Below, one piece after another: positions 127 through 54,066 of a stretch of 64,000 nt of DNA. Every line of letters begins with the position of its first letter. The first letter of the stretch is position 1. The notes below the pieces were generated by a model. The model made no database searches, was not told the DNA's origin, and worked only from the letters and a program-made list of their open reading frames with translations. The DNA is from an uncultured Spirochaetales bacterium (GTDB taxonomy: Bacteria; Spirochaetota; Spirochaetia; Sphaerochaetales; Sphaerochaetaceae): positions 1 through 64,000 of the forward strand of contig CALXOO010000002.1 of assembly GCA_944390045.1 (NCBI GenBank), given 5' to 3'. The position numbers and the translations under genes were made by a program.

Positions 127-2639
127 TTCACGACCAGGTTGACGAGCTTTCCGGGAACTACGATTTCCTTGACGATTGTGTGACCCTCGATGTAGGGGAC
201 AATCTTCTCGTTCTGCTTTGCCTGAGAGAGCATCTCATCCCGTTCTGCCGCTGCCGGCATCGGGATGCGTGCTCGCAGCTTTCCGTTGATCTGGACGACC
301 ATTTCGATCATGTCCTCGGCGCAGAGGGCCTCATCGTAGTCCGGCCACTTCTCGTTTGCGATGCTGGGTTTGTGTCCGAGCATCTCCCACAGTTCCTCTG
401 CAAGGTGAGGAGCGTAGGGTGAGAGGAGGAGGGCCAGCTTCTCGAGCACGCTTCTGGGAACTGTCTCAAGCCTGTTCATCTCGTTGACAAGCACCATCAT
501 CTGGCTGATGGCCGTGTTGAAGTTCAGGCTGGCGGTATCTTCCGTGACCTTCTTGATCGTCTTGTGCAGCAGTTTCTCGAGGTCAGATGGAATCTCCACT
601 TCCCCGATCTTCTTCTCAGTCGCGATCCTCCAGATCCTGTCTAGGAAGCGGTAGACGCCGATCGTTCCCTGTGTCGACCAGGGCTTTGACATCGTCAGCG
701 GACCCATGAACATCTCGTAGACCCTCATGGTATCTGCTCCGTAATCGCGGATGACGTTGTCCGGATTGATCACGTTCTTCAGGCTCTTCGACATCTTCGT
801 GACGATCTGCTCGACGCTCTCGCCGGTGTCCTTTTCCACGAACTTTCCTGCACTGACCTCCTCAACGCAGTCTGTCGCGATGATGACTCCGTTTTTCTTC
901 TTGTAGGCGAAGGATGTGATCATTCCCTGATTCACCAGTTTCTGGAAGGGCTCCTTAGTGCTGACCAGTCCAAGGTCATAGAGGACGTGGTGCCAGAATC
1001 TGGCATAGAGCAGATGAAGCACCGCATGCTCCGCGCCTCCGATGTAGAGGTCGACAGGCATCCAGTATTTCTCCTTCTCCGGATCAATGAAGGCCTTGTC
1101 GTTTCTTGGATCGATGTACCTGAGGTAGTACCAGCATGAACCGGCCCACTGGGGCATTGTGTTAGTCTCCCTCTTCGCAGGACGTCCGCAGACGGGGCAG
1201 GTGGTATTGACCCAGGAGTCGATGTTAACCAGAGGGCTTTCTCCTGTGCCGCTCGGCTCGTACTTCGAGACCTCGGGCAGGCGGAGCGGAAGCTCGTCAT
1301 CCGGAACCGGCACGATCCCGCAGTGGTCGCAGTGGATCAGAGGAATAGGCTCGCCCCAGTAGCGCTGGCGTGAGAAGACCCAGTCGCGCAGCTTGTAGTT
1401 CACGGCCTTGTGTCCGCACTTCTTCTCCTCAAGGAACTCAAGCATCCTGCTTATCGCATCTGCCTTGTTCAGGCCGTCGAGGAAGCCGGAGTTGACATGG
1501 ATTCCGTCCTCAGTCCAGGCCTGTTCCTGCACATCGACTCCGCTCTTGAGCACTTCAATGATCGGCAGGTTGAACTTCTTTGCGAACTCCCAGTCCCTTG
1601 TGTCGTGGGCGGGAACAGCCATGATCGCGCCGGTGCCGTAGCTGATAAGCACATAGTCGGCAATCCAGATCGGGATTCTCTTCCCGTTCACCGGGTTGAT
1701 GGCATAGCTTCCGGAGAAGACTCCGGTCTTGTCCTTTGCAAGATCCGTCCTGTCCAGATCGCTCTTGTGGCTGGCCTGCCTGACATATGCCTCCACCGCC
1801 TCCTTCTGTCCGGCCGTGGTGAGCTTGCCGACAAGCGGGTGCTCCGGTGCGATTACCATGTACGTTGCACCGAAGAGCGTGTCACAGCGGGTCGTGTAGA
1901 CTTCAAGCTTGTCATCAAGCCCCTCGATATCGAAAAAGACAGCGGCTCCCTCGCTCCTTCCGATCCAGTTGCGCTGCATCAGCTTGACTGATTCCGGCCA
2001 GTCCAGATCATCCAGACCATTCAGAAGCTCGTCGGCATAGGCCGTGATCCTGAGCATCCACTGCCTGATGTTCTTTCTCTCGACAGGTGTGCCGCATCTC
2101 TCGCACAGGCCTTCCTTGACCTCCTCATTGGCAAGTCCTGTCTTGCAGGAAGGACACCAGTTGATGGGAGTGTGGGCCTCGTAGGCCAGTCCCTTCTTGT
2201 AAAGCTGGAGGAAAATCCACTGGGTCCAGTGGTAATAGTCCTCCTCGCAGGTGCTGATCACGCGGTCCCAGTCGTAGCACATACCCAGACTCTTGATCTG
2301 GCGCGTGAAGTTCTCTATGTTCTTGCGGGTGGTCACACGCGGATGCGTGCCCGTCTTGATGGCGTAGTTCTCGGCCGGCAGTCCGAATGAGTCAAATCCC
2401 ATCGGATGCAGGACATTGTAGCCCCGCATTCTGTAAAAGCGGGAGTAGATGTCGGTCGCGGTGTAGCCTTCCGGATGTCCGACATGAAGACCTGCCCCGG
2501 AGGGGTATGGGAACATGTCAAGGACGTACAGCCTCTTCTCAGGCGGAACTGAGGGATCCTCTGTGACGTGGAAGGTGTCGTTCTCCTCCCAGTAGCGCTG
2601 CCATTTCTTCTCTATGTCGGTGAATGGATACTTGCTCAT
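123..2639 (-). CDS. leuS: Leucyl-tRNA synthetase
   Basis: Charges tRNA-Leu with leucine in the cytoplasm. The 838-residue product has the class I synthetase signatures: the HIGH-type motif (GLHVGHPEG) near residue 55 and KMSKS in the C-terminal half, with the inserted editing domain between them and a C-terminal anticodon-binding region ending VNLVVN. Length fits bacterial LeuRS. An in-frame GTG lies 6 nt upstream at 2645, but I chose the ATG at 2639. A promoter (TTGAAC-N17-TATGAT) ends 8 nt before it, and there is no Shine-Dalgarno sequence, so the mRNA is probably leaderless. The gene ends inside the 50-bp hairpin repeat. The promoter overlaps the last codons of the upstream MerR gene. Confidence 0.97.
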
Positions 2640-50265: not shown

Positions 50266-51360
50266 ATGAGACTTCTGATCATCAATCCTGGTTCGACAAG
50301 CACCAAGGTCAGCGTCTTCGACGATGAGGTGCCTGTATTTACAGAAAGTGTCTTCCACGATGCGCCCCAGCTGCTGGCTTATCCTACTACCAATGACCAG
50401 CTTCCATTCCGCAAAAAGGTGGTGCTGGACCTGCTTGAGGCGCATTCTGTTCCGGTAGAAAGCATAGACTGCTTCGTCGGCCGCGGCGGCTGCGCGTATT
50501 CCCAGAAGGAAGGCGTGATGGAGATCGACAGGGCCCTGTACGAGGACACGAGAGACGACAGGGGCGGCAGTGACCATCCTGCCAAACTCGGCGTCATGAT
50601 GGCCTGGGAGCTGGGAAATGAGTACTCGAAGCCGATGTATACGCTCAATCCCACGAATGTCGATGAATATGATGATATCGCCAGGATAACAGGAATCAGA
50701 GGCGTATACCGGCGTGCCCAGTCGCATGTGCTGAATCAGAAGGGAATTGCCCGTCTGCATGCGGCGAAGCTGGGACGGAAGTACAGCGACTGTTCATTCA
50801 TCGTCTGCCATATTGACGGAGGAATAACAGTGGCTGCCCACCGCAATGGCCGGATGATAGACGGCACTGAGGGAGCAGGGGGAGACGGCCCATTCACTCC
50901 GACCCGGCTGGGTTCGGTTCCGGTCATGGAGATCGCGAGGTACCTTGAAGGACACACTCCTGCCGAACTTGAGGTCATGTGCTCCCGTTCCGGAGGCTTT
51001 GTCAGTCACTTCGGCACCTCGGACTCGGACCGCATCCACAATCTGGTCGTGGAGGGCGACGGACATGCTGTTCTCGTCTGGAATGCGATGATATACCAGA
51101 TATGCAAGTCGGTCGGTGCCATGGCAGCCGTACTCGGCGGCAGAGTTGATGCGATTCTGCTCACAGGCGGCCTTGTCCGCTTCGATGACATTGTCGACGG
51201 CATCACAGAGCGCTGCAGATGGATAGCTCCGGTATGCGTCTACAAAGGCGAAGTGGAGCAGGAAGAGCTGTGCGGTGAGGTCCTCAAGGTCCTGCGGGGA
51301 ACGGCACAGGCCGGCCGATATACCGGCCGTCCGGTCTTCAGCGGATTCAGCTGGGACTGA
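50266..51360 (+). CDS. buk: Butyrate kinase / acetate kinase-family (Buk)
   Basis: Interconverts butyryl phosphate and butyrate with ATP. The 364-residue ASKHA-fold enzyme starts with the phosphate loop INPGSTSTK, has the GRGGCAYS block, SDHPAKLGVMMA, CHIDGGITV with ATP-contacting Asp, and the GGRVDAILLTGGL helix. The length fits Buk (355-365 residues) rather than acetate kinase (about 400). No phosphotransbutyrylase gene is adjacent, so it may work with another acyl phosphate. It has a leaderless-type promoter. The end overlaps the lysR remnant on the other strand by 14 bp. Confidence 0.93.
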   Translation: MRLLIINPGSTSTKVSVFDDEVPVFTESVFHDAPQLLAYPTTNDQLPFRKKVVLDLLEAHSVPVESIDCFVGRGGCAYSQKEGVMEIDRALYEDTRDDRGGSDHPAKLGVMMAWELGNEYSKPMYTLNPTNVDEYDDIARITGIRGVYRRAQSHVLNQKGIARLHAAKLGRKYSDCSFIVCHIDGGITVAAHRNGRMIDGTEGAGGDGPFTPTRLGSVPVMEIARYLEGHTPAELEVMCSRSGGFVSHFGTSDSDRIHNLVVEGDGHAVLVWNAMIYQICKSVGAMAAVLGGRVDAILLTGGLVRFDDIVDGITERCRWIAPVCVYKGEVEQEELCGEVLKVLRGTAQAGRYTGRPVFSGFSWD

Positions 51361-51665
51361 ACGCCTCCTTCATGTACTGGATGAACCGTTTCGTCTCCGG
51401 TTTCTGCGCGGCGCTGAAGCAGTATATGCCATAGCTCAGTCTGCCGCTGTCCCTGACAGGGACGAAGGTCAGCCCGCTGTCCCTCCGGCAGCCCATTGCC
51501 GGAAGCAGCGCGACTCCATAGCCTGCCTCTGCCAGTGTCCTCGCCGCATCCTGTGTCGGGCACATGCGCAGCTCATCCGGATTTCTCCCCGCACAGAGTC
51601 TGTGCTGGATCCTGTCAACGGCCATCGGGCAGGTCCTCGGACTGGAGAGTATGAGCCTGTCCATG
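51347..51665 (-). pseudogene. Remnant of a LysR-family regulator (C-terminal half only)
   Basis: From about 51665 down to the stop at 51347 the reading frame encodes the second half of a LysR effector domain (DRLILSSPRTCPMAVDRI, then GYGVALLPAMG, PETKRFIQYMKEAFS). The DNA-binding N-terminus and first half are absent. The open frame extends further upstream into the structured RNA segment but is not LysR-like there (Pro/Arg-rich). The gene has therefore lost its 5' part next to that segment, which points to a deletion or insertion event. Confidence 0.7.
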
Positions 51666-51719
51666 CACTCCCTGATGCGCGTCTGGAGGAGGATGCGGAA
51701 ACGTCGCCTTCTTGGCCGG

Positions 51720-52031
51720 CTTTCCGCTGCCGTCACGGGGCCTTGCTCCCCGTCGCCCTTCGCCCATGTTGGAGGGGGTTTGTCGTGCATGGCGCCGTCC
51801 CTACCTGACAGGACTTTTGACCATGCACCGCAGAAGCAGTGGACTAGAGCCACATCCACTGGTGCCTATATATTCCCGACCAACGTAGTTCAGAGGCCTG
51901 AGCCTCATCACTGGGGCTAGTCAACGTCAGGCATTCGGAGTTTCCTCCTCATGCCTATAGTCTCGTGCTGCAGGTCGTTGACTTTCCTCACTCCTTTTCA
52001 TGCAGGAGGGGACCCTTGCGGATCCCCCCTC
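51720..52031 (-). ncRNA. Structured RNA element, HEARO/omega-RNA-like candidate
   Basis: About 310 nt read on the minus strand after the TRAP gene. In order: a 10-bp stem with a GCAA loop (52031-52006); AGUCAACG/CGUUGACU, 8 bp (51983-51976 with 51926-51919), enclosing a hairpin AGGCAU-GA-GGAG-GAAA-CUCC-GA-AUGCCU (51956-51929) with tandem G-A mismatches and a GNRA loop; GAGGC/GCCUC (51906-51893); CAGUGGA/UCCACUG (51861-51837); GUGCAUGG/CCAUGCAC (51828-51785); ACGGGG/CCCCGU (51753-51735). The GNRA loops exist only on the minus strand, fixing its orientation. Size, complexity and an ATGA at its 5' edge recall HEARO RNAs; identity is not proven. Confidence 0.55.
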
Positions 52032-52035
52032 ATGC

Positions 52036-54039
52036 TCATGATTTTGCAAGCTGTTCTTTGCGCTTCATTCCGTACTCGTAAACAACGACCAGGACCAGGG
52101 CTGTGAGGCCGACCAGGTCCGTCACGGTACCGGGTATGACCATGCACAGTCCTCCGATTGCCAGGATTATCCTGACCAGCGGATTGAGATGCCTGCCGAG
52201 GTAGCCGTTCAGGGCTGCGGCTATGCCGAAGATGCCAAGCAGGGAAGTGATGCAGATCTGCACGATCTCAAAGACGCTTGTCACATTGACGAAGAGCATT
52301 GCCGGATTCAGGGCAAAGACATACGGTACAATGAAGGCCGCTATGGCCAGCTTGGTTGCCACAAGGCCCGTCCTCATCGGATCAGACTTGGCGATCGCAC
52401 TTCCCGCATAGGCAGCCAGGGCCACAGGCGGGGTTATGTCGGCGACGATTCCGAAATAGAAGACGAAGAAGTGGGCTGCCACCGGCTCGACATTCAGGGC
52501 AATCAGAATAGGCGCGCAGACACCTGCCATGATGCAGTAGTTTGCAGTGGTGGGAACGCCCATGCCAAGCACGATGCAGCACAGCATCGTCAGCAGGAGG
52601 GCGATCATGGCGATGCCCTGAGACAGGGATACGATGGTGCCCAGCAGTATGGAGGCAAGTCCTGTGACAGTGATGCAGCCTGAGATTATTCCGGCAATGC
52701 CGCAGGCGACGACGACTGTTATGGAACTCCTGGAACCGTTCTCGAAGGCATCGAGTATCCAGCGGAATGACAGTGATGGCCGCTCTCCCTTTTCCTCTTC
52801 CTCACCGCCGTCAGTGGTGGCCTGGAAGTGCGGAACAATATTGTGGATTACTCCGACAACCATCGCGACCAGGATGGACAGTGTGGCTGAGTAGGCCATC
52901 GTGAAGGTGTTGGAACCTACCAGATAGATCAGTGCGATGAGAGGCAGAAGAAGATAGATGTCCTTGATCAGGTCCCTGACCTTGGGCAGCATTTCCTTCG
53001 GTATTCCCTTCATGCCGCTCTTCTTCGCCTCCAGATGGACGGCGATGAAGATTCCTGTGAAGTAGAGCACTGCAGGCAGGATCGCCATGACGGCAATCTG
53101 TCCGTATGGTATGCCTGTGAACTCGGCCATGAGGAAGGCGGCGGCTCCCATGATCGGTGGCATGATCTGTCCGCCCGTGCTGGCCGCGGCCTCAACGGCG
53201 GCAGCGAACTCGCTCCTGTAACCCATCTTCTTCATCATCGGAATCGTTATGGAGCCGGAACCGACTGTGTTCGCGACAGAGGATCCGGATGCCATGCCCT
53301 CCAGGGCGCTGGCGACAACGGCGACCTTTGCCGGTCCTCCTGTGAAGCGTCCGACGGCCGTGTTGGCGAATCGGATGAAGAAATCTGCGACTCCGGTGCG
53401 CTCCAGGAAGGCTCCGAAGATGATGAAGATGACGATGTACTTCACGCAGACGCCGACAGGGGTGGAGAAGATTCCGTTTGCTGTGTAGAAAAGCGTCCTG
53501 ATCAGCTGTGTCAGCCCGATCCCGCTTGCCAGAGTGTAGATGACAAGCGCTCCTGCCACGCAGAGGATCGGCAGACCCACACAGCGGCGGCAGAGTTCGA
53601 CCAGGGCCAGGATTCCGATTGCTCCGACTGTCATGAAAACCGGATCCGCCATGATCCTGGCGGAGAGTCTGATGACAGTCATTGCGTTGGCTGCATAGTA
53701 GAAATATGCCCCGGCGCCCACGACCATGATCACAATGTCGTACCAGGGCATGTGGTCAGGCTTCTCGATTCCCTTTTTCACGGGGAAGGTCAGGAAACCC
53801 AGAAGTATGATCATGCCCATGAAAACCGAGTAGCGGATCTCCTGAAGCGTGGTCAGGAAGATGGCGTCAATGATGCAGTAGATGGCGAAGGCCGCCATGA
53901 TGTAATGGATGACAGTCTTTCTCCATCCGGTCCATATGCGGGTGTTTGACTCTCTGTCATACTTTTTCATCACGGCCTCCACATCGGCCATGGTTCCCAC
54001 TGATTCATCGTGAATGAATTCTTCTTTCTTCTTTGACAA
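52036..54039 (-). CDS. TRAP transporter fused membrane protein (DctQM type)
   Basis: A 667-residue inner-membrane protein combining the small DctQ-like and large DctM subunits, the form that partners TAXI receptors. About 17 hydrophobic segments. Typical M-domain stretches are GMASGSSVANTVGSGSITIPMMKKMGY (key residues GSSVANT and GSITIP), ASTGGQIMPPIMGAAAFLMAE and GMGVPTTANYCI. I place the start at the TTG at 54039 because AAGGAG lies 6 nt before it; the open frame otherwise reaches a TTG at 54060 that includes the SD itself. It follows the TAXI receptor gene and an intercistronic hairpin. Confidence 0.93.
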   Translation of the reverse strand: MSKKKEEFIHDESVGTMADVEAVMKKYDRESNTRIWTGWRKTVIHYIMAAFAIYCIIDAIFLTTLQEIRYSVFMGMIILLGFLTFPVKKGIEKPDHMPWYDIVIMVVGAGAYFYYAANAMTVIRLSARIMADPVFMTVGAIGILALVELCRRCVGLPILCVAGALVIYTLASGIGLTQLIRTLFYTANGIFSTPVGVCVKYIVIFIIFGAFLERTGVADFFIRFANTAVGRFTGGPAKVAVVASALEGMASGSSVANTVGSGSITIPMMKKMGYRSEFAAAVEAAASTGGQIMPPIMGAAAFLMAEFTGIPYGQIAVMAILPAVLYFTGIFIAVHLEAKKSGMKGIPKEMLPKVRDLIKDIYLLLPLIALIYLVGSNTFTMAYSATLSILVAMVVGVIHNIVPHFQATTDGGEEEEKGERPSLSFRWILDAFENGSRSSITVVVACGIAGIISGCITVTGLASILLGTIVSLSQGIAMIALLLTMLCCIVLGMGVPTTANYCIMAGVCAPILIALNVEPVAAHFFVFYFGIVADITPPVALAAYAGSAIAKSDPMRTGLVATKLAIAAFIVPYVFALNPAMLFVNVTSVFEIVQICITSLLGIFGIAAALNGYLGRHLNPLVRIILAIGGLCMVIPGTVTDLVGLTALVLVVVYEYGMKRKEQLAKS

Positions 54040-54066
54040 TGCATTCTCCTTTGGTATCAAAAAGAT

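Follow-up and report, generated by a model that had tools for sequence, protein, structure and literature searches.

The minus strand of the window, a 64,000-nt stretch of DNA from an uncultured Spirochaetales bacterium, carries at positions 51670–51982 what is very probably the left portion of an insertion element of the IscB (HEARO) kind that was truncated by a later deletion. The 313-nt remnant comprises the left end, the omega-RNA and the first part of the iscB leader. It aligns without gaps to two copies in the same genome, and is 97.1% identical to the complete element L004 and 94.6% identical to L003. Because the right end is missing, the window copy is taken to be a deletion remnant and not a solo mobile element.

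The first-pass annotation had proposed a strongly folded RNA on the minus strand of 51720–52031, and this stood up to calculation. The minimum free energy of that strand is −127.7 kcal/mol, with a z-score of −2.8 (100 dinucleotide shuffles, one of which folded as well), and the plus strand of the same interval folds less well (z −2.1, shuffles). The tandem G-A mismatches described between AGGCAU/AUGCCU and GGAG/CUCC are present. Of the two GNRA loops reported, the GAAA tetraloop is present, but the hairpin with the GCAA loop (52029–52006) lies outside the element. A cmscan search of Rfam matched RF02033 (HEARO), the model that had been singled out, at 51982–51752 on the minus strand; the score of 92.8 bits exceeds the gathering cut-off of 83 bits, and the match covers model positions 1–211, which is the full length. 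The suggestion that this is a HEARO RNA, or omega-RNA, is thereby borne out. Covariation among homologues, the absence of which had been named as speaking against the claim, was also found: both-sided changes occur in 22 of 41 consensus pairs in 23 related sequences, as counted on a partial predicted structure and a sequence-based alignment. Homologues of the window RNA lie directly 5′ of iscB in L004, in L001 and in many relatives.

The window RNA is the HEARO RNA, or omega-RNA, of IscB elements, that is, the guide RNA of the IscB nuclease (PMC9755519). The missing protein gene is the sole point in favour of a new class of structured RNA, which had been offered as another reading. With RF02033 matched over its full length, and with near-identical copies directly upstream of intact iscB genes, the probability of a new class is vanishingly small and we treat it as excluded.

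The edges of the element differ from the 51720–52031 first assigned to it, since it starts at 51982 and homology ends at 51670. Identity with the other copies begins sharply at 51982, where the left end reads GTCAAC, and the upstream flanks differ in all copies. The segment 52031–51983, which includes the GCAA hairpin and an ATGA, is therefore host flank, outside the identity with all other copies. The hairpin (52006–52029, minus strand) stands behind a TRAP transporter (DctM) gene at 52036–54060 on the same strand (PF06808, 301 bits; conserved in the genus), and relatives that lack the element have a comparable G+C-rich hairpin in the corresponding position after their TRAP gene. The ATGA, some 55 nt outside the element, contains the stop codon of the TRAP gene. 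The rule given in the first-pass annotation, insertion after ATGA or GTGA on the 5′ side, does not apply here: complete copies sit before ATGA or ATGG, at their right end. Eight nucleotides before the element stands the Shine-Dalgarno sequence AAGGAG (51991–51996, minus strand), in the same arrangement as in the joined flanks of complete elements. Its position suggests that the element went in immediately ahead of a start codon since lost to deletion. The left flank of the window copy, AAGGAG-TGAGGAAA followed by the element, has the common form of start-codon insertions.

At its other edge, homology breaks off about 62 nt short of the point at which iscB begins in the complete copies, and lysR codons follow. 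Comparison with L004 places the deletion junction, at which the iscB leader is joined to lysR, at 51669/51670 (minus strand): on the two sides of this point L004 reads CATCAGGG and GCGTCGGG, whereas the window reads CATCAGGG and AGTGCATGG. The truncated lysR noted beside the RNA is a genuine remnant, at 51347–51669 on the minus strand. It consists of the last ∼107 codons and encodes the C-terminal part of the LysR substrate domain (PF03466 positions 124–208 of 209); the start and the helix-turn-helix part are missing. The absence of an associated nuclease gene is likewise confirmed, as no iscB lies downstream of the window RNA and lysR follows from 51669. The right-end hairpin and the ATGA/ATGG junction, both present in complete copies, are also absent, and in a comparison of the complete L004 element with the window, one 16-nt chance match was the only similarity outside the 313 nt. 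The window copy thus lacks both the downstream iscB and the right-end hairpin before ATGA or ATGG that mark a complete IscB element. A solo element would keep both ends without iscB, and this copy keeps the left end only. The RNA scaffold is whole and the element incomplete.

Fragments homologous to lysR adjoin the same kinase gene in two related genomes (G008 and G009). TRAP gene, kinase gene and lysR remnant also occur together in G009, which supports the assembly. By its TRAP gene G009 is the closest relative, and its lysR is truncated at another point; part of the lysR loss may therefore be older than the deletion, and the gene may already have been decaying. In G009 (contig C45; L030/L027) the lysR junction lies beside an apparent inverted ABC-transporter fragment.

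The first-pass annotation had called for a search of the genome for further copies and for iscB, and both are there. The genome (2.0 Mb in 62 contigs, 91% complete) holds five full-length HEARO RNAs, namely the window copy and four more. Two of these, L001 and L004, are followed by an intact iscB, and the other two, L002 and L003, by an internally deleted one. The L004 IscB has 419 amino acids with RRXRR and HNH domains and scores 345 bits against NF040563 (guided_IscB; cut-off 175); the second intact IscB, at L001, also has RRXRR and HNH and lies far above the NF040563 cut-off. A partial copy of the element is found at the end of contig C14 (L171), and the start of contig C33 (L172) bears the 3′ part of an iscB together with an element right end, which lies ahead of the epimerase start codon there. 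Matches to Y1 transposases (PF01797) number four in the genome (C55:408, C4:41842, C3:52406 and C29:22699), none of them beside a HEARO copy. These Y1-type transposases are candidates for mobilization in trans.

The right ends of complete elements share a conserved two-stem hairpin, in which an outer stem encloses an inner stem-loop, with matching internal loops between the two. The opposed internal loops read TTCC.. and ..TTTCC or ..TATCC shortly before ATG, and the structure is followed by a short run of several nucleotides and then by ATGA or ATGG. It is shared across phyla and recurs in Spirochaetales, Duodenibacillus, Sutterella and Youngiibacter. That complete copies in the genome end before ATGA or ATGG is in keeping with the NTGA or NTGG TAM of the related IsrB (PMC9581776).

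The joined flanks of 46 elements (from L001–L023 and L065–L142; Spirochaetales, Sutterellaceae and Youngiibacter) were surveyed by script. In 32 of the 46, the ATG that follows the element begins an open frame of 60 codons or more, and in nine further elements the frame is still open at the end of the sequence; among control ATGA/ATGG sites in the flanks, 36% begin such a frame. In 27 elements the 17 nt of left flank nearest the element contain a Shine-Dalgarno-like word (control 18%, P = 1e-9), and 20 combine open frame and Shine-Dalgarno-like word (control 7%, P = 1e-11); these P-values are too optimistic, as the elements are not independent and many copies come from the same genome. The pattern is nevertheless obvious on inspection of the joined flanks, as in aaggattaaggagagactg followed by ATGAAG. 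Within the survey the ATG assignment of L008 is doubtful, its right-end hairpin suggesting an earlier end, at TTGA. Pfam matches mark true gene starts at L096 (RecR, from the first residues of the domain) and L086 (DNA ligase, from residue 4), as well as at L142 (class-V aminotransferase), L007 (Band 7), L018 (class I/II aminotransferase) and L172 (epimerase); recR and the NAD-dependent DNA ligase gene are thus among the genes with start-codon insertions, in elements from several phyla. L002 is an exception and, from a reading of its sequence, interrupts a VOC-like frame. IscB/HEARO elements thus appear to sit mostly directly before the ATGA or ATGG start codon of a co-oriented gene, often behind its Shine-Dalgarno sequence. 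No statement of start-codon insertion by IscB elements was found in the literature searched, from which the original HEARO and OMEGA papers were absent.

For the window locus these features point to a history in two steps. First, the element would have inserted between the Shine-Dalgarno sequence and the start codon of a gene that lay downstream of the TRAP transporter, immediately ahead of that start codon. A deletion would then have removed what remained of the iscB leader together with iscB itself, the right-end hairpin, the target gene and the 5′ two-thirds of lysR. We infer this order of events, since no strain that carries the whole element at this locus came to light. Which gene was lost is also an inference; it was possibly the PNPOx-family gene (PF01243) that lies downstream of TRAP in six relatives, mostly with an ATGA start. 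When this genome was queried with a composite built from the sequences of two relatives, no PNPOx gene came up, which at 91% completeness is a weak negative. A precise empty site was sought in the relatives, and their TRAP-to-PNPOx intergenic regions agree in layout. Compared with the relatives' PNPOx starts, the left flank of the window copy outscores 99% of random ATGA sites in two relatives out of five, a fit that is not significant against shuffles, and it does not resemble the PNPOx start region of the closest relative. The resemblance is moderate only, and at most suggestive. Having lost its right end, the remnant should be unable to transpose.

A different origin was implied by the earlier proposal of a solo, trans-mobilized element. 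Put more specifically, the window copy would be a non-autonomous, MITE-like element of omega-RNA only, moved in trans by a TnpA-type transposase. Sister genomes do harbour such elements. L007 (355 nt, 1501–1855, plus strand) and L018 (357 nt, 1501–1857, plus strand), from two sister species, each have a left end, an omega-RNA and a right-end hairpin without iscB; they align over their whole length and seem to be diverged members of a single non-autonomous family. L022, in a sister genome, runs 422 nt from its left end on the minus strand, with iscB deleted internally and both ends kept, and L008 is probably a further omega-RNA element that keeps both ends without a working iscB. The four Y1-transposase matches in the genome would also suit this origin. 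The window copy itself, however, has neither right-end hairpin nor ATGA/ATGG junction. Its 3′ edge falls at an arbitrary point of the iscB leader and ends abruptly inside lysR, and no second copy with the same 3′ edge turned up in 16 genomes of the genus. The proposal thus holds for the sister genomes and not for the window copy, for which we consider it highly improbable. Large internal iscB deletions are also present in about six of 21 HEARO copies in Duodenibacillus, where the RNAs score above 128 bits. Given these, the damaged iscB copies at L002 and L003 of this genome and the solo and deleted copies of the sister species, it is common for the RNA to survive when iscB is lost.

A deletion remnant may still retain a function. 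In a complete element the omega-RNA takes its guide from the flank on the 5′ side. Presumably IscB cuts the empty site once it has re-formed (flank plus ATGA-type TAM), and repair from an element-bearing copy would restore the element, as in the scheme for the related TnpB, in which the nuclease cuts the re-formed empty site and repair restores the element (PMC11870625). By the IscB/IsrB layout, with the guide 5′ of the scaffold and the TAM 3′ of the target, the window RNA would have its presumed guide in the ∼16 nt that precede 51982 (51983–51998, minus strand), half of the ancestral target site, and its target would be the lost site. With its RNA scaffold nearly intact, the remnant might still be loaded into IscB in trans.

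That the window RNA is a retained, working orphan guide which loads into an IscB from elsewhere in the genome and acts in trans is nonetheless unlikely. The genome does encode a matching IscB with a 97% identical omega-RNA (L004), all nine substitutions relative to L004 are transitions, the GNRA loop is kept as GAAA, and the flank that would serve as guide is still attached. Against this, two of the nine transitions weaken the first hairpin relative to L004 (CCUGCAG/CUAUAGG, with one C-A mismatch and one G-U pair), the genome holds no second target with fewer than two mismatches to the presumed guide, no relative has the window copy at this site, and a crude scan for sigma-70 promoters found nothing. 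There is a slim chance that the remnant is still transcribed and guides the L004 IscB; with its TAM lost it would then be a permanent record of one insertion site, and could direct the nuclease to incoming alleles in which that site, the Shine-Dalgarno region and ATG start, is empty. On balance the window copy is regarded as a fairly ordinary fossil with a small chance of function.

Compared with known systems, the locus agrees with HEARO or IscB omega-RNA loci (RF02033) in the full-length covariance match, the left end GTCAAC and the near-identical copies before iscB in the genome, and differs in lacking iscB and the right end. It shares left end, omega-RNA and leader with IscB OMEGA elements of the IS200/IS605 superfamily, but is cut by a deletion and lacks a linked tnpA, a gene to which HEARO nucleases are in general seldom linked (PMC9755519). 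The literature searched yielded no usable account of standalone omega-RNAs. Such RNAs were reportedly found in Ktedonobacter racemifer by Altae-Tran et al. in 2021, at loci that likewise have no adjacent nuclease gene and an IscB elsewhere in the genome. The window copy has in addition lost its right end, and the complete solo elements detected all lie in sister genomes.

Overall, the window locus adds another case of an omega-RNA that has survived the loss of its nuclease gene. Two testable points surround it: this Spirochaetales genus contains solo omega-RNA elements that keep both ends, and IscB elements of several phyla lie between a gene's Shine-Dalgarno sequence and its start codon. If the start-codon pattern holds in a systematic survey, it would help to explain how IscB elements insert without killing a gene, and why their TAM resembles a start codon.
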